Shown here: positions 44,024 through 52,537 of the stretch, piece after piece | Numbering within the stretch: the stretch's first letter is position 1 | Layout: each line of letters opens with the position of its first letter | NCBI GenBank assembly: GCA_030584085.1 | Contig: CP129490.1 | Coordinates: forward strand, 715,511 to 779,510 | Source: Melioribacteraceae bacterium | GTDB taxonomy: Bacteria > Bacteroidota > Ignavibacteria > Ignavibacteriales > Melioribacteraceae | DNA: 64,000 nucleotides | Reading direction: 5' to 3' | The notes under the pieces: generated by a model | Database searches by the model: none | The model's input: the letters and a program-made list of their open reading frames with translations, nothing else | Told to the model about the DNA's origin: nothing | Position numbers and translations under genes: made by a program

Positions 44024-44974
44024 ATGGTTATGAAGATCATACTTACATTAATCATAGCAATTTCAGTTCTGTTTATCGGATGTACGGTTACTACAACAAC
44101 GCCGAAATTGCAAAACGCTGAGCAATTTGGCGTGGTCAATAATAATACGATTAAGATCACTAATCATGAATCAGCTGGTGACTTTAGTGTTCGATTGAAC
44201 GTGAGTAAAAACCGCGATAGAATCTTGAGCAGCAAAATTGAAGGACACACGATGGTGAATAAAAATGGGATTTATGAAGTCGAACCTGTTGAAGGCGAAG
44301 ATTATTTCTTTGAAACCGCAGGGGTCAATACAGAAGAGTTCACCGGAAATAATCTACATTGGAATATTCCTGAATTTCAAACAAATTTTGAGGTTGAAGT
44401 CAATGTCACACCTAATTTTTCCGTCTACGGTGGAACTACTTTCGCGGACATTGATCAAATTGATTTGAACAACTTTAATTTTGGACTTGGATTTTTTAGA
44501 GAAGAAAATAATTGGGCGGTTCGATTGGATATTGCTGGTGCATATTATGAGACTGAAACTCATATCGATTATGTTCGGCTTGAAGATAAACCATTTACCG
44601 GTGATGCTGAGCGTAAAGTATTTTTCTTCTATGAATCTCACAAAGAAAATTTTTTTGATCTGTCTTTGGGAGTAACAATAAACTCAAGAAATCCTGAATG
44701 GTTCGTAAACGGATTTATTAACTACACCTTCGGCCAACAAAGCTTTTTTGATATTGAACCTACCTCCGTTACTTTTTATGATTGGTTAAAGTCTTCTGAA
44801 GGTAAGAGGTTTGAGTTGGATGAGACTTACCATACTCTTTCACTCGGTCTATATAAAGAGATTGAATCTTTAGGGTATTTGTTTGGCGGAGTAAGATTTA
44901 ACAAGTATACCGACTCAGAAGACAAACTTTTTGCTCCAAATTATTTTCTCCAATTTGATTTTCAACTTTTCTGA
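44024..44974 (+). CDS. Predicted lipoprotein / outer-membrane barrel-like protein, unknown
   Basis: 316 residues; start ATG at 44024 or 44030 (MKIILTLIIAISVLFIGC). Lipobox LFIGC with cysteine near residue 20. Residues ~120-316 show alternating amphipathic strands (FEVEVNVTPNFSVYGGTTFA, FLQFDFQLF at the end with a terminal Phe), suggesting a beta-sheet outer-membrane or periplasm-facing protein. No family recognised. Its stop overlaps the mobA start (TGATG), so the two are translationally coupled, a link to molybdenum cofactor that I cannot explain. Confidence 0.65.
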   Translation: MVMKIILTLIIAISVLFIGCTVTTTTPKLQNAEQFGVVNNNTIKITNHESAGDFSVRLNVSKNRDRILSSKIEGHTMVNKNGIYEVEPVEGEDYFFETAGVNTEEFTGNNLHWNIPEFQTNFEVEVNVTPNFSVYGGTTFADIDQIDLNNFNFGLGFFREENNWAVRLDIAGAYYETETHIDYVRLEDKPFTGDAERKVFFFYESHKENFFDLSLGVTINSRNPEWFVNGFINYTFGQQSFFDIEPTSVTFYDWLKSSEGKRFELDETYHTLSLGLYKEIESLGYLFGGVRFNKYTDSEDKLFAPNYFLQFDFQLF

Positions 44975-45624
44975 TGCATAATAAAATCAACGGCATAATA
45001 CTCTCCGGTGGAAAAAGTTCTCGAATGGGCGAAGATAAAGCCCTGCTGAAGGTCGGCACAAGAACTATCATTGAAATAATGATTGACAAACTAAAACCAT
45101 TCTGTAATGAGATTATAATCAGTGCAGACGAAACTGAAAAATATTCTCAATTTGGCTATAAAGTTGTACCTGATAAATTCAAAAACGGTGGACCTCTTGC
45201 TGGGATTTATTCTTCACTTATCGAATCAAATACAGAAAAGAATTTTATTATTTCTTGCGACTTGCCACTTGTATCTTCAGAAGTAATTGAAAAACTTATT
45301 AACTGTAATTCCACCAAAGAAATAATTCTTCCGGTTACGAATGGAAAGTATCATCAACTTTGCGGAGTTTATTCGAAGTCAGTTTTGGAAAAATCTGAAT
45401 CTATTTTAAATACAGAAGAGGAGAAGAGAAGAGAGGGTGAGGGGGAGAATTGGAGAAAAGGAGAAGAGGAGAAATGGAGAAAGAAGAGAAATACTTCCGT
45501 TAAAAAATTACTCGAAGTTTCTCAAGTTGAGTTTGTTGATTTAACTTCAATTTCCGGCAAGAATGAATTTTTGAATATGAATACGGTTGAGGATTTTGAG
45601 TTGATAAAAAAGATGTTTGAATGA
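44974..45624 (+). CDS. mobA: Molybdenum cofactor guanylyltransferase MobA
   Basis: 216 residues. Starts NKINGIILSGGKSSRMGEDK (LxGGxSxRMGxDK, nucleotide-binding), then NGGPLAGI and ISCDLPLVS. It attaches GMP to molybdopterin, producing bis-MGD for enzymes such as the molybdoenzyme at 46899. Between the conserved CGVYSKSVLEKSESI and VKKLLEVSQVEFVDL it carries a ~28-residue charged, Trp-rich insert (EEEKRREGEGENWRKGEEEK and following), encoded by a purine-rich element also found at 59828. Start overlaps the upstream stop. Catalytic motifs intact, so it is likely still active. Confidence 0.87.
   Translation: MHNKINGIILSGGKSSRMGEDKALLKVGTRTIIEIMIDKLKPFCNEIIISADETEKYSQFGYKVVPDKFKNGGPLAGIYSSLIESNTEKNFIISCDLPLVSSEVIEKLINCNSTKEIILPVTNGKYHQLCGVYSKSVLEKSESILNTEEEKRREGEGENWRKGEEEKWRKKRNTSVKKLLEVSQVEFVDLTSISGKNEFLNMNTVEDFELIKKMFE
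45444..45479 (+). repeat. Purine-rich repeat inserted in frame in mobA
   Basis: GGAGAATTGGAGAAAAGGAG followed by AAGAGGAGAAATGGAG; almost the same as the reverse complement of 59828-59863. It encodes the NWRKGEEEKW segment of mobA. Confidence 0.65.
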
Positions 45625-45644: not shown

Positions 45645-45903
45645 TTAATCATAATGAAAGCGGCATTTCAATATTCTGATTTCATCATCCGTTACTTGAT
45701 AAATTAATCTGTGTTCGCTTGTGATTCGCCTTGACCAGCAGCCGGTATATTTATGTTTAAGCGGTTCGGGTTTTCCAAGACTTGTGAATGAATTGCGAGA
45801 AATATCTTTTAAAAGTTCATTTATTCTTTTAAGAATTTTTTTTATCAGTTTTCTGCCAGAATAAATAGTCGTCCCAAGATTCTTCCACAAACAGATATTT
45901 CAT
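45645..45903 (-). pseudogene. yoeB: YoeB-family toxin, frameshifted in an A8 tract
   Basis: YoeB-type mRNA interferase. The ATG at 45903 overlaps the antitoxin stop (ATGA) and starts MKYLFVEESWDDYLFWQKTD, as in intact YoeB. Eight A's (T's on the plus strand, 45836-45843) then shift the frame and reading ends after KKNS. One A fewer restores ILKRINELLKDISRNSFTSL and the conserved GKPEPLKHKYTGCWSRRITS through FHYD (active-site Glu, Arg, His and C-terminal Tyr present). So the gene is either inactivated, phase-variable, or misread in a homopolymer. A short frame starting at 45890 is an artefact of the shift. Confidence 0.85.
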
Positions 45904-46154
45904 TCTTCAATCAGATCTTTTTCGAAATGTTTCCCTTCTTTGAACTTCTTAATAGCGGAATCTAATCTTTGTTCATTTAGTTTCGAGGCAAGTTCGTAAG
46001 ATGTTGCATTTAGTGAATTGTATTCCTCCAGAGACATTATTACAACCCCGTTATCTTTCCCACGATTAATCAACAATGTTTCAAAATTATTGGTAACAAC
46101 ATCAAAGTATTTTTTTATGTCTTTTCTAAATTCTGAAATTGTAGTTGAGAGCAT
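45900..46154 (-). CDS. yefM: YefM/Phd-family antitoxin
   Basis: 84 residues. Phd/YefM fold with STTISEFRKDIKKYFDVVTN, LLINRGKDNGVVIMSLEEYN and a C-terminal helical tail (LNEQRLDSAIKKFKEG) that binds YoeB. It also acts as autorepressor in known pairs. Intact, first gene of the toxin-antitoxin pair, overlapping yoeB by the ATGA junction. The promoter should lie in 46155-46250. Confidence 0.87.
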   Translation of the reverse strand: MLSTTISEFRKDIKKYFDVVTNNFETLLINRGKDNGVVIMSLEEYNSLNATSYELASKLNEQRLDSAIKKFKEGKHFEKDLIEE

Positions 46155-46410
46155 GATTCAACCTTACTTTTTTGTACAAGTATATGTACATAAATAGAAT
46201 TTGTCAATGATATTTCTACTGCTTGAATCTTTTCCCCATTACGTACATCTTAACAGAATAAAAATATCCAGTTATGCTTTATACGGATAAAACGTCTTTT
46301 ATTTCCCAAAATCAATGATTTTATAAAGAAAAATTTCCCAATTATAAAAATGAGATTTGTCTACCCTTAAAAAATTTTATAAAAACGCATAATTATAAAT
46401 GGCAAGAAAG

Positions 46411-46453
46411 TTGACATCCACAAATATCAACATTTACAAATGAGAATTTCTCA
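46411..46453 (+). promoter_or_regulatory. Putative promoter and dyad directly before the merR start
   Basis: TTGACA at 46411-46416 is a good -35 match. A perfect inverted repeat TGAGAA-T-TTCTCA occupies 46441-46453 and abuts the ATG at 46454. There is no Shine-Dalgarno in the 20 nt upstream. The dyad could be a regulator site or a hairpin that masks the start. Confidence 0.5.
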
Positions 46454-46897
46454 ATGAACTTAACTGAAATAAAAGATAAACCGATCTACCCGATCAGAAC
46501 GGCAGCCGAACTTCTCGGTATTTCTGTTCACACTTTAAGAATGTATGAGCGTGAAGGATTAATCCTCCCACATAAAACAGAAGGAAACCAGCGTTCATAT
46601 TCACAAGCGGATATCGATAGAATCGAATGTATTCGCAGAGCAATTAACGAAAGTAAAATTAGTATTAACGGAATCAAAACAATTTACTCGTTGATTCCCT
46701 GCTGGGAAGTAGTTAAATGTTCGGATGAAGACAGAAAAAATTGTAAAGCCTATTTGGGTCATACAGAACCTTGCTGGACTTATAATCACCCAAACACAAC
46801 TTGCGAAAATAGAGACTGCCGAGAATGTGAAGTTTATACAGATCATTCAAGCTGTGGTGAAGTGAAAGAATTAATTCGAAAAATTTCGGGAAACTAA
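46454..46897 (+). CDS. MerR-family regulator with cysteine-rich C-terminal domain
   Basis: 147 residues. N-terminal MerR winged helix (~10-80) with AAELLGISVHTLRMYEREGL, followed by RSYSQADIDRIECIRRAINE. The C-terminal ~65 residues hold nine cysteines in a pattern (PCWEVVKC, CKAYLGHTEPCW, NTTCENRDCRECEVY, SSCGEV) like the 'two-CW' domain found with redox regulators; a metal, Fe-S cluster or sulfur-state sensing role is my inference. The gene ends 1 nt before the molybdoenzyme gene, so it probably regulates that operon. Confidence 0.82.
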   Translation: MNLTEIKDKPIYPIRTAAELLGISVHTLRMYEREGLILPHKTEGNQRSYSQADIDRIECIRRAINESKISINGIKTIYSLIPCWEVVKCSDEDRKNCKAYLGHTEPCWTYNHPNTTCENRDCRECEVYTDHSSCGEVKELIRKISGN

Positions 46898-46898
46898 C

Positions 46899-49106
46899 AT
46901 GGAATTATCACGACGAAGATTTCTGCAGATTTCATCGGCTACTGTAACCGGACTTGCAGCGGTAACATCGCTAAGTACGATTACCAAGGGCGCCAAAAAG
47001 CTTGAAGAGAAAACCGGCAAACCGGTTAAAGGAATACAAAAAATCCCAACTTACTGCGATTTATGTTTTTGGAAATGCAGCGCTGTTTCTTATCTAAAAG
47101 ATGGTGAGCTTTGGAAAATAGAAGGACATCCGAACGATCCATTAAGTAACGGTAGACTTTGTCCGAGAGGAACCGGAGGTGTCGGTGCTCATTACGATAA
47201 AGATAGATTGAAAACTCCGCTCATCCGTAAGAATGAACGTGGTGAAGAAAAATGGGTCAGCGTTACTTGGACTGAAGCACTTGATTACATAGCTGATAAA
47301 ATGAAGAAAATAAAAAGCGAATACGGTCCCGAATCAATGGCATTATTCAGTCACGGTGTCGGCGGAACATTTTTAAAACATATGATAAAAGCTTACGGTT
47401 CACCAAACGAAACAGCTCCGTCATTTGCGCAATGCCGCGGACCAAGAGAAACCGGGTTTGAATTAACCTTCGGTGATATTGTCGGCTCACCCGAAAGAAC
47501 AGATATCGAAAACACGAAGTGTATGGTTCTGATCGGTTCGCACCTTGGTGAAAATATGCACAACACACAAGTGCAGGAATTTGCTAAAGCAAACAAAAAA
47601 GGTGCAACATTTATTGTTGTTGATCCGAGATTTTCCGTTGCTGCAAGCAAAGCAAAATATTATCTACCGATTAAACCGGGAACCGATATTGCATTGCTGC
47701 TCGCTTGGATGAACGTTATTGTTAACGAAAATCTTTATGATAAAGAATACGTAGAAAACTATGGATTCGGTTTTGAACAGTTTGCTTATGAAATAAAAGA
47801 TTACACACCTGAGTGGGCTTATCCCCAAACTGGAATTGATCCAAAAGTAATAAGGGAAACAGCTTATGAAATGGCTAAGCATAAACCGGCTACAATAATT
47901 CACCCCGGTAGAAGAACAACTTGGTATGGAGACGACAGTCAAAGAAGTCGTGCGATTGCATTGCTCAATGCACTTCTCGGAAGCTGGGGAAGAAAAGGCG
48001 GATTCTTTATGCCGACCAAATTAAGTATTCCTTCTTATCCTTATCCGGAATATCCAAATCCGGAAAGAGGAAGAGTTGATAACCCTGATGAAAGATTTCC
48101 ATTCGCAAAAGGTGAGCTTTTGGCAAACGGAATTCGTGAAGCAACAATTACAGGAAATCCTTATCCTGTAAAAGGTTGGATAGTTTATGCAACCAATTTA
48201 CTTCAGGCAATTCCGAACCAAAAAGAGACTATAAAAGCAATTCAAAATTTAGATTTAATGGTAGTTGTAGATGTTGTTCCAAGTGAGATTGCCGGTTGGG
48301 CTGATGTTGTGCTTCCTGAATCGGTTTACTTGGAAAGATATGATGAATTAAATATTTCTCCTTTCAAAGAAGGTTTTGTTTCGATTCGTCAGCCTGTAAT
48401 TGAAGAACCTTCACATCAAAAACCGAATTGGTGGATTGCAAAAGAATTAGGAAAGCGTCTCGGTTTGCAAAAATATTTTCCGTGGAAAGATGTTGAAGAA
48501 TATCTCGATACAAGGTTGAAAACAGTCGGACTTTCACTTGAAAGATTGAAGAAAGAAGGAGTAGTAAAAGCTCCCAAGCAGCCGATATATTTTGAAGATG
48601 GAATACAGCCGAATTTCTGGACGCCATCGGGTAAAATTGAATTCTACTCGCTTCAATTAAAAGAAAAAGGATTTGATCCCGTACCGAAATTTACCGAACC
48701 GGAATCACCACCTCCCGGTTACTTCAGATTATTAATGGGAAGAGCTCCTGTTCACACTTTCGCTAAAACACAATCAAACCCAATATTGAAAGATATGATG
48801 GAAGAAAACTCGGTTTGGATAAACATTGATATAGCACAGCGTTATGGTCTTAAATCAGGCGATTATATAAAACTCAAAAACACCGAGGGTGTAGTTTCGA
48901 ACAAGGTAAAAGTAAAAGCAACAGAGAGAATTCGTCCCGATAGTGTTTACATGGTTCACGGATTCGGACAGCGTTCAAGAATGTTGAAAAGCACTTACTT
49001 AAAAGGTGCCAGCGATGCACAACTTACGACAAAGTACAAGCTCGATCCGCTGATGGGTGGCACTGCGATGAATGTCAATTTTGTAACTTTTGAGCGGGAG
49101 GCGTAA
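46899..49106 (+). CDS. Molybdopterin oxidoreductase catalytic subunit, polysulfide/thiosulfate reductase (PsrA/PhsA) type
   Basis: 735 residues. Tat signal SRRRFLQISSATVTGLAAVT sends the folded enzyme to the periplasm. The [4Fe-4S] motif follows (YCDLCFWKC then GRLCPRG). Bis-MGD binding residues are spread over the central domains; the segment SFAQCRGPRETG (Cys ~179) is where Psr/Phs-type enzymes keep the Mo-ligating cysteine, with no selenocysteine. C-terminal molydopterin-binding domain ends with LMGGTAMNVNFVTFER. Length and the three-gene ABC context (Fe-S subunit and NrfD-type subunit) match polysulfide or thiosulfate reductase; oxidative use on sulfur compounds cannot be excluded. Confidence 0.87.
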   Translation: MELSRRRFLQISSATVTGLAAVTSLSTITKGAKKLEEKTGKPVKGIQKIPTYCDLCFWKCSAVSYLKDGELWKIEGHPNDPLSNGRLCPRGTGGVGAHYDKDRLKTPLIRKNERGEEKWVSVTWTEALDYIADKMKKIKSEYGPESMALFSHGVGGTFLKHMIKAYGSPNETAPSFAQCRGPRETGFELTFGDIVGSPERTDIENTKCMVLIGSHLGENMHNTQVQEFAKANKKGATFIVVDPRFSVAASKAKYYLPIKPGTDIALLLAWMNVIVNENLYDKEYVENYGFGFEQFAYEIKDYTPEWAYPQTGIDPKVIRETAYEMAKHKPATIIHPGRRTTWYGDDSQRSRAIALLNALLGSWGRKGGFFMPTKLSIPSYPYPEYPNPERGRVDNPDERFPFAKGELLANGIREATITGNPYPVKGWIVYATNLLQAIPNQKETIKAIQNLDLMVVVDVVPSEIAGWADVVLPESVYLERYDELNISPFKEGFVSIRQPVIEEPSHQKPNWWIAKELGKRLGLQKYFPWKDVEEYLDTRLKTVGLSLERLKKEGVVKAPKQPIYFEDGIQPNFWTPSGKIEFYSLQLKEKGFDPVPKFTEPESPPPGYFRLLMGRAPVHTFAKTQSNPILKDMMEENSVWINIDIAQRYGLKSGDYIKLKNTEGVVSNKVKVKATERIRPDSVYMVHGFGQRSRMLKSTYLKGASDAQLTTKYKLDPLMGGTAMNVNFVTFEREA

Positions 49107-49107
49107 G

Positions 49108-49647
49108 ATGGCAAGATTCGGAATGGCAATAGATACTAAACTTTGCGTCGGTTGTATGGATTGTGTTGTTGCCTGTAAAACAGAAAATAATGTTCCCGAA
49201 GGTTATAATAGAGATTGGATAACAGAAGAAGCATTAGGAAAATTTCCGAACATAAATCTGGAAATAAGAAGCGAGAGATGTAATCATTGTGAAGATGCAC
49301 CATGCGTTTCAAGTTGTCCGACGGGTGCAAGTCATTATCACGATGTCGGCGGAGTTGTATTAATTGAACATAACGAATGTATAGGATGTAAAGCCTGCGT
49401 TGCAAGTTGTCCTTATGATGCAAGATTTATTCATCCGGATGGTTACGCCGATAAATGTACTTTCTGTATTCACAGAGTTGAAGAAGGTAAAGATCCGGCA
49501 TGTGTTTCGGTTTGCCCTACAAACTGTATGATCTTCGGTGATCTTGATGATCCTAACAGCGAAATAAGCAAACAACTTAATTCAAGAAAACATCATTCGC
49601 TGAAACCTGAAGCCGGTACAAATCCAAAAATATTCTATTTGACTTAA
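49108..49647 (+). CDS. Ferredoxin-like subunit with four [4Fe-4S] clusters (PsrB/PhsB type)
   Basis: 179 residues from ATG 49108, which follows GGGAGG by 9 nt; a TTG at 49090 inside the upstream gene is not the likely start. Four cysteine sets are visible: CVGCMDCVVAC, CNHCEDAPCVSSCP, CIGCKACVASCP and CTFC...CVSVCP, the DmsB/PsrB pattern. It passes electrons between the membrane subunit and the molybdoenzyme. No own signal peptide, so it would ride with the Tat substrate. Starts 1 nt after the catalytic gene's stop. Confidence 0.92.
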   Translation: MARFGMAIDTKLCVGCMDCVVACKTENNVPEGYNRDWITEEALGKFPNINLEIRSERCNHCEDAPCVSSCPTGASHYHDVGGVVLIEHNECIGCKACVASCPYDARFIHPDGYADKCTFCIHRVEEGKDPACVSVCPTNCMIFGDLDDPNSEISKQLNSRKHHSLKPEAGTNPKIFYLT

Positions 49648-49658
49648 AGAGGTTTACG

Positions 49659-50591
49659 ATGCACGAAATTTCAACAACTAGAAATAATCATTTAATCGAT
49701 CCGACTCTAAGTGTTTGGGGATGGGAAATTCCGGTTTATCTTTTCTTAGGCGGAATGGTAGCCGGGATGATGATTATAACCGGATACTTTTTATTTAAAC
49801 AGAGACAAAGTGAAGAAACTTGTTCATGCCGTTATGTACCCTGGGTTAGTTTAGTTTTATTGAGTTTGGGTATGTTCGCGTTATTCTTAGATCTCGAACA
49901 CAAATTATTTACATGGCGATTATACACAACATTCCAAGTAACTTCACCAATGTCTTGGGGAGCTTGGATTTTAATAATTGTTTACCCCGCGATACTCGTA
50001 ACTATATTAATCACACCACCGAAATGGTTGATTGAAAAGTTTCCTGTTGTAAAAAAATATTCGAATTGGCTGAACGAAAGAAAAATATGGATTAAAAACA
50101 TCGGTGTTGCAAATATGATTTTAGGAGCAATGCTCGGAATGTACACCGGTATTCTTTTAAGTTCACTCGGTGCGAGACCTTTGTGGAATACTTCAATATT
50201 GTGGTTACTATTCTTGGTTTCCGGACTTTCCGGTGCGGCGGCTTTTGTTCATATGGTTGCAAAAAATGTTTACGAAAGAGAATTGCTCGCAAAAGCCGAT
50301 AACGGATTTTTGACTTTCGAATTATTTGTAATCGGATTAATGATTATTGGTTTGCTTACATCAACTCAAGTTCATCAAGATGCGGCGATGTTAATTCTAA
50401 ACGGTCCATTTGCACCAACCTTTTGGGTGTTCGTTGTCGGTATCGGAATAATAATTCCGTTGATAATACAATTGATGGCGGTGAATCATAAAGTGAATCA
50501 CACGCCGTGGGCACCGATAATGGTCATACTCGGTGGATTGATTTTAAGATTTGTAATCGTTGAAGCAGGACAGGTTAGTTCTTGGTTTTAA
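49659..50591 (+). CDS. NrfD/PsrC-type quinol-interacting membrane subunit
   Basis: 310 residues with about eight membrane helices. Starts DPTLSVWGWEIPVYLFLGGM and continues with GYFLFKQRQ, MFALFLDLEHKLFTWRLYTT and SPMSWGAWILIIVYPAIL, the NrfD/PsrC pattern. It exchanges electrons with menaquinol and anchors the complex in the inner membrane; coupling to proton movement is known in the family but not shown here. Third gene of the operon, 11 nt after the Fe-S subunit. A double repeat follows the gene, before the YeeE genes. Confidence 0.88.
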   Translation: MHEISTTRNNHLIDPTLSVWGWEIPVYLFLGGMVAGMMIITGYFLFKQRQSEETCSCRYVPWVSLVLLSLGMFALFLDLEHKLFTWRLYTTFQVTSPMSWGAWILIIVYPAILVTILITPPKWLIEKFPVVKKYSNWLNERKIWIKNIGVANMILGAMLGMYTGILLSSLGARPLWNTSILWLLFLVSGLSGAAAFVHMVAKNVYERELLAKADNGFLTFELFVIGLMIIGLLTSTQVHQDAAMLILNGPFAPTFWVFVVGIGIIIPLIIQLMAVNHKVNHTPWAPIMVILGGLILRFVIVEAGQVSSWF

Positions 50592-50603
50592 CTTTTTATT
50601 AGT

Positions 50604-50674
50604 GTCATTCCCGCATGCTTCAAGCGGGAATCTAATTTAATATGAGATGCCCGATAGAGACATTCGGGCATGAC
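50604..50674. repeat. Head-to-head pair of family B hairpins
   Basis: 50604-50633 (GTCATTCCCGCATGCTTCAA then GCGGGAATCT) and, inverted, 50645-50674 (AGATGCCCGA...GGGCATGAC), whose reverse complement aligns with the first. Separates the psr-like block from the YeeE genes. No T-run. Confidence 0.8.
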
Positions 50675-50709
50675 TAAGAGATTTTAAGCAGATTTAAAAG
50701 GAAATATAA

Positions 50710-51297
50710 ATGACAGCACTTACTCACATTTTATCAAAAGTTAAACTTCAGGTGACTGATAATGAACATACTTACAGTCACGTTGAAGCAAAACCTTATT
50801 CAAATCCATATTACGTCGGATTTGGGTTGGGGCTTGTTTTATTAGCAGCATTCGTTATTATGGGAAGGGGACTCGGAGCTTCCGGCGCGGTTTCATCGGT
50901 TGTAACCGTTGGAGTAAACGCAGTTGCTCCGGAACATGCACAGAGTAACGGTTACTTTTCATCTTATCTCGGCGACGGTTCTGTTAGCCCTCTAAAAGAT
51001 TGGCTTGTATTCGAAGTTCTCGGAGTTATCTTCGGTGGATTTTTATCCGGTATGTTAGCCGGAAGAGTTAAAGGCGGAGTTGAAAAAGGACCGCGTGTTA
51101 AAACAAGAACTCGATTTATTTTCGCTTTTATCGGCGGTACATTAATGGGATTCGGGGCTAAGCTTGCAAGAGGATGCACAAGCGGACAAGCGCTTACCGG
51201 TGGAGCTTTACTCGGACTCGGGAGCTGGGCATTTATGCTTGCAGTTTTTGCCGGCGGATATGCAGTAGCTTATTTTATGAGGAGGCAATGGAGATGA
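50710..51297 (+). CDS. YeeE/YedE-family sulfur compound permease, subunit 1
   Basis: 195 residues with about four to five membrane helices. DUF395/YeeE features: FVIMGRGLGASGAVSSVVTV and GTLMGFGAKLARGCTSGQAL, whose cysteine in GARLA(R)GCTSG-type motif takes part in thiosulfate or persulfide transfer in known YeeE. A shorter half-size protein than E. coli YeeE (352 aa), so it probably pairs with the next gene. ATGA overlap (51294) with the second half gene supports a coupled two-component transporter. Confidence 0.85.
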   Translation: MTALTHILSKVKLQVTDNEHTYSHVEAKPYSNPYYVGFGLGLVLLAAFVIMGRGLGASGAVSSVVTVGVNAVAPEHAQSNGYFSSYLGDGSVSPLKDWLVFEVLGVIFGGFLSGMLAGRVKGGVEKGPRVKTRTRFIFAFIGGTLMGFGAKLARGCTSGQALTGGALLGLGSWAFMLAVFAGGYAVAYFMRRQWR

Positions 51298-51893
51298 ATG
51301 CACCATTTTACAAATTCGACTTATTTGGTTTTGACGTTAGTTTAATAATTGCATTTGCAATCGGTATCGGTTTCGGGTTTGCTTTAGAACGCGGCGGATT
51401 CGGGAGTGCAAGAATTTTAGCTGCGCAATTTTACTTTACCAATATGCGCGTTCTTAAAGTTATGTTCACTGCAATTGTTACCGCAATGATCGGCGTTTTT
51501 TATTTGTCATACATTGGATACTTAGATTTATCCTTAGTTTTTATAAGTGATACATATATCATCCCTCAAGTTGTAGGCGGATTAATTCTCGGTATGGGAT
51601 TTATAATTGGTGGATACTGTCCCGGTACTTCTTTTGTCGCATTTTCAACGGGCAAGAAGGATGCAATTGTTTTTATACTCGGAGTTACTTTCGGCATATT
51701 TATCTTCGCTGAATTATTCCCATTCATCGAAGATTTTTATTACTCAACAAATATGGGAAGAGTAACTTTGCCCGACTACTTCGGACTTTCTTACGGGATG
51801 GTTGTATTTTTAGTAGTGTTGATGGCGCTTGGTGCTTTTGCCGCAGCAGAGTGGGGTGAAAGAGTTATGGCGAAAAAAGGAGAATCAAAATGA
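51294..51893 (+). CDS. YeeE/YedE-family permease, subunit 2
   Basis: 199 residues from ATG 51294, which overlaps the upstream TGA and has GGAGG 8 nt before it; longer frames starting upstream are not credible. Membrane segments start at ~20 (SLIIAFAIGIGFGFALERGG), and the conserved cysteine loop is seen in GMGFIIGGYCPGTSFVAFST. Second half of a split YeeE/YedE transporter for sulfur compounds. The rhodanese gene overlaps its end by four bases, so all three are coupled. Confidence 0.85.
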   Translation: MNAPFYKFDLFGFDVSLIIAFAIGIGFGFALERGGFGSARILAAQFYFTNMRVLKVMFTAIVTAMIGVFYLSYIGYLDLSLVFISDTYIIPQVVGGLILGMGFIIGGYCPGTSFVAFSTGKKDAIVFILGVTFGIFIFAELFPFIEDFYYSTNMGRVTLPDYFGLSYGMVVFLVVLMALGAFAAAEWGERVMAKKGESK

Positions 51894-52537
51894 AAAATTA
51901 CATTATGAATTTATCCGGTTCAAAAAAATTAGCAATAGTTGGTTTAATACTCGGTTTGGTTGCGGTACTTCTCGGTAATCCATACGATAATACTTATGCA
52001 AAAGTAAATGTGAAAGAGTTATCCGTCGAGGCAATTCGTGATAGCGAAATAATCAACGTTAAAGAACTTGCCGACTGGATAATTGAAGGAAGAGTAGATT
52101 ACAGATTGGTGGACTTGCGCGATGAGGAAGCTTTCAAAGAATATTTTATTCCGACTGCAGTAAATATTCAGACTTCAAAATTATTAGAATCCAATTTAAT
52201 GCGTAATCAAAAAATTCTTTTGTACTGCGAAGATAATATCAAAGCAGCGCAAGGTTGGTTTATTCTGAAAGCTAATAATTACAAGGGTGTGTATATCTTG
52301 GACGGTGGTGTTGATAGTTGGAAAGATGAAATCCTATTTCCAAGTATATCCACGAATGCTTCGCCGGAAGAAAAAGCAGAGTTTGATAAGATGGTTGAAG
52401 TAAGCAAATTTTTCGGCGGCTCACCACAAGTCGGCGAAACCGAAGGTGGAAAAGAAATTAAAATGCCTAAGATTGAAATGCCTGCTGCGATACCGATGAA
52501 TACAAACAGCGGTAAACCGAAGCGGGAAGGATGTTAA
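51890..52537 (+). CDS. Membrane-anchored rhodanese-domain protein
   Basis: 215 residues. One N-terminal membrane segment (LAIVGLILGLVAVLLGN), then a rhodanese domain (~50-155) with the catalytic cysteine in ILLYCEDNIKAAQGW and the VDLRDEEAF and YILDGGVDSW blocks. The tail is Pro/Met-rich (EIKMPKIEMPAAIPMNTNSG) and ends in a cysteine. It likely carries a persulfide at the periplasmic face. ATGA overlap with the second YeeE gene. Passing sulfur between the transporter and the reductase is my inference. Confidence 0.86.
   Translation: MKNYIMNLSGSKKLAIVGLILGLVAVLLGNPYDNTYAKVNVKELSVEAIRDSEIINVKELADWIIEGRVDYRLVDLRDEEAFKEYFIPTAVNIQTSKLLESNLMRNQKILLYCEDNIKAAQGWFILKANNYKGVYILDGGVDSWKDEILFPSISTNASPEEKAEFDKMVEVSKFFGGSPQVGETEGGKEIKMPKIEMPAAIPMNTNSGKPKREGC

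Follow-up and report, generated by a model that had tools for sequence, protein, structure and literature searches.

The conserved cysteine of a rhodanese-fold protein encoded beside psrABC and a split YeeE pair in a Melioribacteraceae bacterium is the C-terminal one

The PsrABC complex of Thermus thermophilus, which we take to be the polysulfide reductase of structure 2VPW (the database lists this entry as a thiosulfate reductase), presumably has three subunits like the enzyme described here, and its solved complex is not known to hold a YeeE or tail partner. Sud of Wolinella, in our understanding a periplasmic protein of rhodanese fold that serves Psr, reportedly feeds this enzyme through its rhodanese active-site cysteine. 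Here we analysed a locus in which a rhodanese-fold protein likewise accompanies a Psr-type enzyme, together with two half-size YeeE proteins. The locus lies in a 64,000-nucleotide stretch of DNA of Melioribacteraceae bacterium (GenBank assembly GCA_030584085.1, contig CP129490.1), which as a whole is called the window, and the genome comprises 3.74 Mb in one contig. A 2019 paper had already reported, from 'Candidatus Thermonerobacter thiotrophicus', a gene cluster that combines a MerR regulator and PsrABC with a rhodanese and two Sulf_transp domains; its psrABC genes are related to MROS_1774-1776 and IALB_1661-1663 and 60-78% identical to the genes of Melioribacter roseus and Ignavibacterium album (passage of PMC6338057). 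Excerpts of PMC3534657 also report MerR-psrABC in M. roseus. The gene content and neighbourhood of the 'Ca. Thermonerobacter thiotrophicus' cluster equal those of the locus studied here, and the gene cluster itself is not new. The passage of PMC6338057 is silent on a lost rhodanese cysteine, a C-terminal cysteine tail, gene fusions and an octaheme counterpart, all of which are described below. The seven genes of the locus and the conserved end of the last one are as follows.

46454-46897, plus strand: MerR/HspR-type regulator with a Cys-rich C-terminal domain (Pfam MerR_1, 66 bits; MerR winged helix-turn-helix present)
46899-49106, plus strand: PsrA/PhsA-type molybdopterin catalytic subunit (twin-arginine translocation (Tat)-type SRRRFL start; PF04879, PF00384, PF01568)
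49108-49647, plus strand: PsrB-type Fe-S electron-transfer subunit (Pfam Fer4_11 and NCBIfam)
49659-50591, plus strand: NrfD/PsrC-type membrane subunit (PF03916, 126 bits)
50710-51297, plus strand: YeeE C-terminal half, PmpA-like (195 amino acids; PF04143 profile positions 151-309)
51294-51893, plus strand: YeeE N-terminal half, PmpB-like (199 amino acids; PF04143 profile positions 1-158)
51890-52537, plus strand: membrane-anchored rhodanese-fold protein with a flexible tail ending KREGC (PF00581; AlphaFold2; Foldseek)
52523-52534, plus strand: codons of the terminal Arg-Glu-Gly-Cys, a conserved element

A sequence-only reading of the window had proposed these seven genes with gaps of 1, 1, 11, 118, -4 and -4 nt, and re-derivation gave the same values at 46454-52537. 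Its family assignments agree with the matches in NCBIfam and Pfam (for the latter MerR_1; Molybdopterin, Molydop_binding and Molybdop_Fe4S4; Fer4_11; NrfD; Sulf_transp twice; Rhodanese). The start it gave, 46411, falls inside a near-palindrome (46410-46431) and outside any gene. It had also called the arrangement unusual, which is partly wrong, as the gene content was in print by 2019 (passage of PMC6338057) and half-size YeeE proteins are known as PmpA and PmpB (excerpts of PMC11582611). As a whole, that interpretation is partly supported, and sulfur respiration by the unit is unproven.

The seventh protein has a rhodanese fold. In an AlphaFold2 model of the window protein built with 32 sequences, residues 10-27 formed a helix, residues 51-180 had a predicted local distance difference test (pLDDT) score above 90 in each ten-residue block, and the tail, residues 181-215, scored 43-64. 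Foldseek on this model returned rhodanese domains. The profile matches of the protein included 1QXN, listed as sulfide dehydrogenase, which we take to be Sud. A conserved active-site cysteine was not found across the family, though the window protein itself has one, in an LLYCED loop. Among the Psr-locus rows with a residue at that position only 2 of 66, the window and its congener (L063), have the cysteine, and 6 further rows have gaps; these 72 rows were those already picked for a GC end, plus the window. None of the 19 rows linked to cytochrome genes (see below) has it. The sequence-only reading had made the rhodanese a persulfide carrier; such a role through the protein's own rhodanese cysteine is not supported. 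The family also differs here from Sud, since the active-site cysteine, presumably the working cysteine of Sud, is lost in nearly all its members.

The conserved cysteine of the seventh protein is the C-terminal one. When 17 seventh-gene proteins were aligned, the terminal Glu-Gly-Cys was among the columns conserved at 90% or more and the rhodanese active-site position was variable. G214 and C215 were invariant in 32 sequences of several phyla, whose rows had been chosen for an [E/G]GC end. We then anchored the count on the N-terminal half of YeeE, which gave 84 places, 7 of them cut by a contig end. A GC end, followed by two further residues at most, was present at 71 of the 77 uncut places, with the duplicate loci L084/L063, L087/L068, L093/L072 and L097/L075 counted once here and in the count of PsrA ends. 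L066 and L108 lack the GC end through frame breaks, with KKREGC in another frame; the further exceptions are L134, L135, L154 and L160, where L154 has a separate lipoprotein-like rhodanese ending EESC. Distant members end in KKGGGC or GGGCS. Of 709 non-module open reading frames (ORFs) from the same loci, 14 have C or GC as their last residues, and tail proteins themselves account for five or more of the 14. The genome of the window has 6 sites with Glu-Gly-Cys codons before TAA or TAG, and with only these two stops considered the module gene alone is an ORF of at least 25 amino acids ending there. The stop codons after the tail were TGA in 39 cases, TAA in 16 and TAG in 16. Read-through at the tail with selenocysteine is unlikely, because the stops are mixed (39 TGA against 32 TAA or TAG) and no conserved extension was seen by eye. 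Judged by eye, the targeting of the tail proteins varies, with a hydrophobic anchor, a cleavable-type signal (L130, L162) or a lipobox-like sequence (L154), and the tail seems to reach one compartment, the periplasm, by different means. We found no mention of a C-terminal cysteine tail on these proteins in literature listings and passages, a body of text that mostly excludes subscription papers.

The association of the seventh gene with the reductase and the split YeeE pair was followed in relatives. Our genome set comprised 58 genomes including that of the window, and 18 of them encode a PsrA of at least 67% identity. The YeeE pair lies close by on the psrA contig in 16 of these 18; in G001 the pieces are on two broken contigs, and in G027 the contig stops within nrfD. 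Named loci were taken from the best 80 of 568 relatives and hence represent the closer PsrA proteins; among these, the nearest belongs to an Ignavibacteriales metagenome-assembled genome (99% identical) and the next to one labelled Melioribacter roseus (96%). After 22 loci with less than 4 kb downstream of psrA had been left out, 58 were informative, and in 54 of them both YeeE halves are nearby on the same strand. By NCBI phylum the 54 loci carry ten labels, namely Acidobacteriota (11), Myxococcota (10), Ignavibacteriota (7), Bacteroidota (6), Verrucomicrobiota (5), Pseudomonadota (5), Chlorobiota (2), Gemmatimonadota (2), Armatimonadota (1) and Bdellovibrionota (1), with 4 unlabelled. The co-occurrence in relatives expected by the sequence-only reading was thus observed, and linkage, the ten labelled phyla and the gene fusions described next support its view of reductase, split YeeE channel and seventh gene as a single conserved unit.

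Other cluster types separate the terminal cysteine from the rhodanese domain. Four relatives have type-2 clusters, which encode a TorD-like chaperone (PF02613, 4/4), a PsrA of about 50% identity and PsrB, followed by a fusion of cytochrome b561 with the YeeE C-terminal half (4/4, 491-493 amino acids) and the YeeE N-terminal half. Their tail protein of 92-130 amino acids has a single hydrophobic segment, a Lys/Pro-rich linker and the end DEGC; the rhodanese domain is gone. In these clusters the rhodanese domain is dispensable and the terminal cysteine persists. In type-3 clusters (L078-L080) the cytochrome b561 is encoded separately and the tail protein has a rhodanese fold, so that the anchor is cytochrome b561 in all seven type-2 and type-3 clusters. 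An EGC end on PsrA itself was seen in 7 of 97 copies, all of them from type-2 or type-3 clusters. Fusion of the tail protein to the YeeE N-terminal half occurs in other phyla, with 25 GC-ended places of this form. The thiosulfate reductase PhsABC of an E. coli SE11 plasmid, taken as a yardstick, resembles these systems in having homologues of PsrA and PsrB, and shares its cytochrome b subunit with type-2 and type-3 clusters. Identity is 32%, and the 11 annotated features displayed for the plasmid locus include neither a YeeE gene nor one for a tail protein.

The tail also occurs with a second, unrelated enzyme. In the first set of YeeE pairs not beside psrA, the N-terminal half was extended and GC-ended in 17 of 17. 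With two of five longer stretches added, all 19 examined pairs with a GC tail lie beside genes for a multiheme cytochrome and a cytochrome-b-like protein. The five longer stretches, listed below and apparently a sister system in relatives, each encode an eight-heme cytochrome c (eight CxxCH), a cytochrome b-like protein, a YeeE C-terminal half and a YeeE N-terminal half with a GC-ended extension, and the remaining 14 of the 19 were judged from like neighbours in short loci.

L172:3165-7134, octaheme sister cluster
L173:2883-7369, octaheme sister cluster, with a MerR of the module's family upstream (one of five)
L174:4112-8071, octaheme sister cluster
L175:3206-7293, octaheme sister cluster
L176:2796-6804, octaheme sister cluster

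All five cytochromes tested passed the octaheme tetrathionate-reductase-family model with 525-604 bits against a cut-off of 375. The examined set leaves aside, among others, the non-psr YeeE pairs of G013, G020, G031, G038, G044 and G051. As a control, seven other half-size YeeE pairs beside unrelated genes, which score 39-81 bits with the module models, were inspected, and a GC tail on the N-terminal half or the next gene was found in 0/7. The idea that half-size YeeE pairs generally carry the tail was therefore rejected; the full-length YeeE proteins of L195 and L196 also have no tail. Since the tail is present at the psr and cytochrome loci and in 0/7 of the others, it accompanies redox-linked YeeE pairs, whichever the enzyme, among the pairs examined.

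The enzyme encoded in the window is of the Psr/Phs type within the complex iron-sulfur molybdoenzymes, having a Tat catalytic subunit with [4Fe-4S] ligands and adjoining genes for the Fe-S subunit and the anchor. Cys 53, 56, 60 and 88 of PsrA, which bind the [4Fe-4S] cluster, and Cys179 were invariant in 17 sequences; from family knowledge, we take Cys179 to be the probable molybdenum ligand. PhsA was the nearest NCBIfam model, and at 524.8 bits PsrA falls below the PRK15488 equivalog cut-off of 694. Among solved structures 2VPW was closest (736 bits, phmmer). A PsrA tree (FastTree), from which the PsrA of T. thermophilus and SrrA were absent, was used for labels and spread only, because the outgroup sits on a long branch and the order of the deepest branchings is unsettled. 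Searching plasmids with NrfD returned 13 records; those listed, five in number, carry the annotation nrfD and have 27-31% identity.

The two YeeE genes encode the C- and N-terminal halves of the protein with one conserved cysteine each, Cys156 of the C-terminal half being kept in 85 of 85 aligned rows and Cys109 of the N-terminal half in 82 of 82. The C-terminal half matched the TsuA structures 6LEO and 8J4C; a phmmer search of solved structures with the N-terminal half gave no match. In this division and in their cysteines the halves resemble PmpA and PmpB, which excerpts of PMC11582611 give as about 130 amino acids each, against 195 and 199 in the window. A crude hydropathy scan found 3 and 6 segments where four transmembrane helices characterise PmpA and PmpB. 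Because of this size and helix number, we call the pair PmpAB-like and do not count it as a member. The gap between the NrfD and YeeE genes contains the following element.

50603-50676, no strand assigned: dispersed palindromic element (4 genome copies at up to 2 mismatches; not conserved)

Two other copies lie inside the window, at about 14520 and 30050. The gap is 118 nt in the window and about 41 nt in the congener L063; the 99%-identical record L083 has the element too. Since the element is dispersed and the gap is short in the congener, the 118-nt gap is no argument for separate transcription, and the repeat at 50.6 kb, to which the sequence-only reading had pointed, was rejected as a conserved operon boundary.

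TusA is the usual cytoplasmic partner of YeeE. TusA delivery was rejected as the general role, as 14 of the 18 carriers have no strong TusA match.

The terminal cysteine outlives the rhodanese domain, changes protein and accompanies two unrelated enzymes, and for these reasons we favour a mobile carrier that would visit both the mouth of YeeE and the active site. Our working model, on which our confidence is evenly balanced, combines a quinone-linked Psr/Phs-type complex, a PmpAB-like channel and a periplasmic arm whose terminal cysteine would carry sulfane sulfur or a different chalcogen. PsrABC would exchange electrons with the quinone pool as a periplasm-facing chalcogen redox complex, and the two half-YeeE proteins may form a PmpAB-like channel docked to it. 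The seventh protein would be a tether that starts with an anchor in the membrane, continues with a spacer of rhodanese fold, non-catalytic in most members, and finishes in a disordered tail with the cysteine as last residue. This cysteine could swing between the molybdenum site of PsrA and the mouth of YeeE on the periplasmic side, bearing sulfane sulfur in persulfide or S-sulfonate form, and the Cys-rich MerR may control the operon, in answer to some signal, from the palindrome before its own gene. The features of such an arm are present in the sequence and the model: the tail is GC-ended in 71/77 and of low confidence in AlphaFold2, as expected of a flexible segment. By analogy, the arm would be comparable to SoxY, which carries sulfur in the Sox system; SoxYZ hands sulfur to the YeeE-like SoxT, with import by SoxT1A (excerpts of PMC11582611). 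The likeness would thus lie in a mobile periplasmic cysteine exchanging sulfur with a YeeE-like channel. The tail protein differs from SoxYZ in being membrane-tethered and in having EGC or GGC at its end or within two residues of it, and no tail protein scanned matched a SoxY fold in Pfam or NCBIfam. At a level of confidence somewhat short of even, we tentatively propose an undescribed class of periplasmic sulfur-carrier arm that only a tether and a C-terminal [E/G]-Gly-Cys would define. A split YeeE channel would load or unload the arm, and enzymes of respiration that are unrelated to one another would share it, namely Psr-type enzymes with an NrfD anchor, Phs-like enzymes with a cytochrome b anchor and octaheme cytochromes of the tetrathionate-reductase family. 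In some lineages the arm would sit on the catalytic subunit, and the rhodanese domain would be a vestigial spacer.

Several observations weigh against this model. The window and congener proteins keep the rhodanese cysteine. Four of the 58 informative loci (L102, L128, L131, L162) have no YeeE pair nearby, and a plus-strand search of L102, L128 and L131 found no convincing tail. In L134 and L135 YeeE is present but no clear tail accompanies it, although L135 has a divergent ORF that ends KKGGC. Within the count of 71, five mini-tail places had no rhodanese hit, and at each of them our choice from the one or two candidate ORFs favoured an ORF with a GC end; L159:3102 is a second pair on the opposite strand that is not evidently in a psr cluster. 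An AlphaFold2 model of a YeeE-tail fusion had a mean pLDDT of 60.7 and gives no support for docking. A TusA match of at least 60 bits was found in just 4 of the 18 carriers, and the single match in the genome of the window is below that cut-off. Elemental sulfur, thiosulfate and sulfite gave no growth stimulation in M. roseus (excerpts of PMC3534657).

The locus could also be an ordinary polysulfide or thiosulfate reductase operon with a thiosulfate importer nearby, in which a conventional rhodanese uses its active-site cysteine to supply PsrA in the manner of Sud. We regard this as improbable, since that cysteine is kept in 2/66 Psr-locus and 0/19 cytochrome-linked rows, and type-2 clusters do without a rhodanese domain while the terminal cysteine stays. 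It draws on PhsA as the nearest enzyme model and T. thermophilus Psr as the nearest solved structure, on the presence of 1QXN, which we take to be Sud, among the profile matches, and on a Psr operon of Desulfurivibrio with a secreted rhodanese (excerpts of PMC12142623). Because the window and congener proteins keep their rhodanese cysteine, a conventional role is possible in these two. A serious rival, though one that we consider unlikely, is respiration of another chalcogen oxyanion such as selenite or tellurite by an enzyme like Srr of Bacillus selenitireducens, with the arm holding Se or Te. Srr has a Tat catalytic subunit, a four-cluster subunit, an anchor, a chaperone and rhodanese-domain proteins (excerpts of PMC12481199), and the lack of growth effect of sulfur compounds on M. 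roseus (excerpts of PMC3534657) would fit. Moreover, an EGC protein of L162 just passes the model of ExtJ from the selenite/tellurite cluster of Geobacter (52.7 bits, cut-off 52.5; cluster in excerpts of PMC5877670); this match is marginal and outside the clade of the window, however, and ExtJ has no known function. The family names of the YeeE-type channels and of the octaheme partner suggest sulfur oxyanions instead.

The stretch L162:626-12263, from Nitrospirota, has rhodanese-like genes, a multiheme cytochrome, TusA-like and TsuA-like (YTD-like) genes, PsrABC and a small secreted protein ending VEGC, the one that matches ExtJ. Its full-length YeeE/TsuA-like gene is upstream, after a gene that is TusA-like by eye and three small genes.

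As to direction, reduction of sulfane sulfur to sulfide at PsrA is weakly favoured, since the nearest families are named reductases. In the opposite direction, PsrA would oxidise sulfide onto the terminal cysteine and pass electrons to the quinone pool, and the persulfide sulfur would be imported through the YeeE pair. Oxidation of sulfide by menaquinone is energetically easier than the reverse, which counts for this possibility, as does the parallel with import from SoxYZ by SoxT1A (excerpts of PMC11582611). The reductase names of the nearest families and the missing strong TusA match in 14/18 carriers speak against it, and we rate it rather improbable. Because of the growth data of M. roseus and the scarcity of TusA, oxidation and other chalcogens nevertheless keep some probability beside the terminal-cysteine arm working in reduction.

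The regulator gene is found 5' of psrA in 16 of 17 genomes with visible upstream sequence; the exception is G042. HspR was the top NCBIfam model, with a score under the cut-off of that model. The nine cysteines counted by the sequence-only reading are there, and its placing of all nine in the C-terminal part needs correction, since C59 is in the helix-turn-helix part and eight are in the C-terminal domain. These eight are conserved, seven being invariant and one nearly so in 18 sequences, paralogues among them. The region before the gene contains a probable regulatory site.

46400-46431, plus strand: probable promoter/operator, with TGGCA at 46400-46404 and the near-palindrome GTTGACATCCACAAATATCAAC at 46410-46431, about 20 nt 5' of merR

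The consensus GTTGATATTTATAAATATCAAC, derived from the same 21 regions that were scored, was matched at 16 or more of 22 positions in 17 of 21 regions upstream of related merR genes; L101, L125, L071b and L074b were below this threshold. TGGCA is just 5' of the palindrome in 16/21 regions, and both elements are present in 14/21. The palindrome is a candidate site of MerR control on this sequence evidence. We take TGGCA and TTG at fixed spacing upstream of merR in 46400-46431 to resemble a sigma-54 -24/-12 element overlapping the palindrome. A palindrome-based regulon was dropped because the genome-wide scan was too noisy: at 2 mismatches it returned 97 strand-hits where the reversed control pattern returned 25, and the top hits were not the module's own site.

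Cys-rich MerR paralogues were noticed at L071:2116-2559 and L075:8323-8751, near a type-1 psr cluster but outside it, which suggests a small regulator family. Upstream of merR in the window, a MobA-like nucleotidyltransferase gene lies on the same strand at 44974-45624, and a gene of similar appearance occurs close to the module of L199 and to the octaheme cluster of L174. Between mobA and merR, a YefM-YoeB type toxin-antitoxin pair occupies the minus strand at 45645-46154, where the congener L063 has another ORF.

To our knowledge, it is unsettled how zero-valent sulfur, in an insoluble or reactive form, gets to the active site that lies buried in Psr-type reductases. A terminal-cysteine arm that occurs with two unrelated enzyme classes and is absent from other half-size YeeE pairs is a concrete candidate mechanism. 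If it proves true, the annotation 'rhodanese' would be corrected for proteins that mostly have no catalytic cysteine, and a YeeE pair together with an [E/G]GC end would be a sequence marker for hidden sulfur respiration or oxidation in at least ten phyla.

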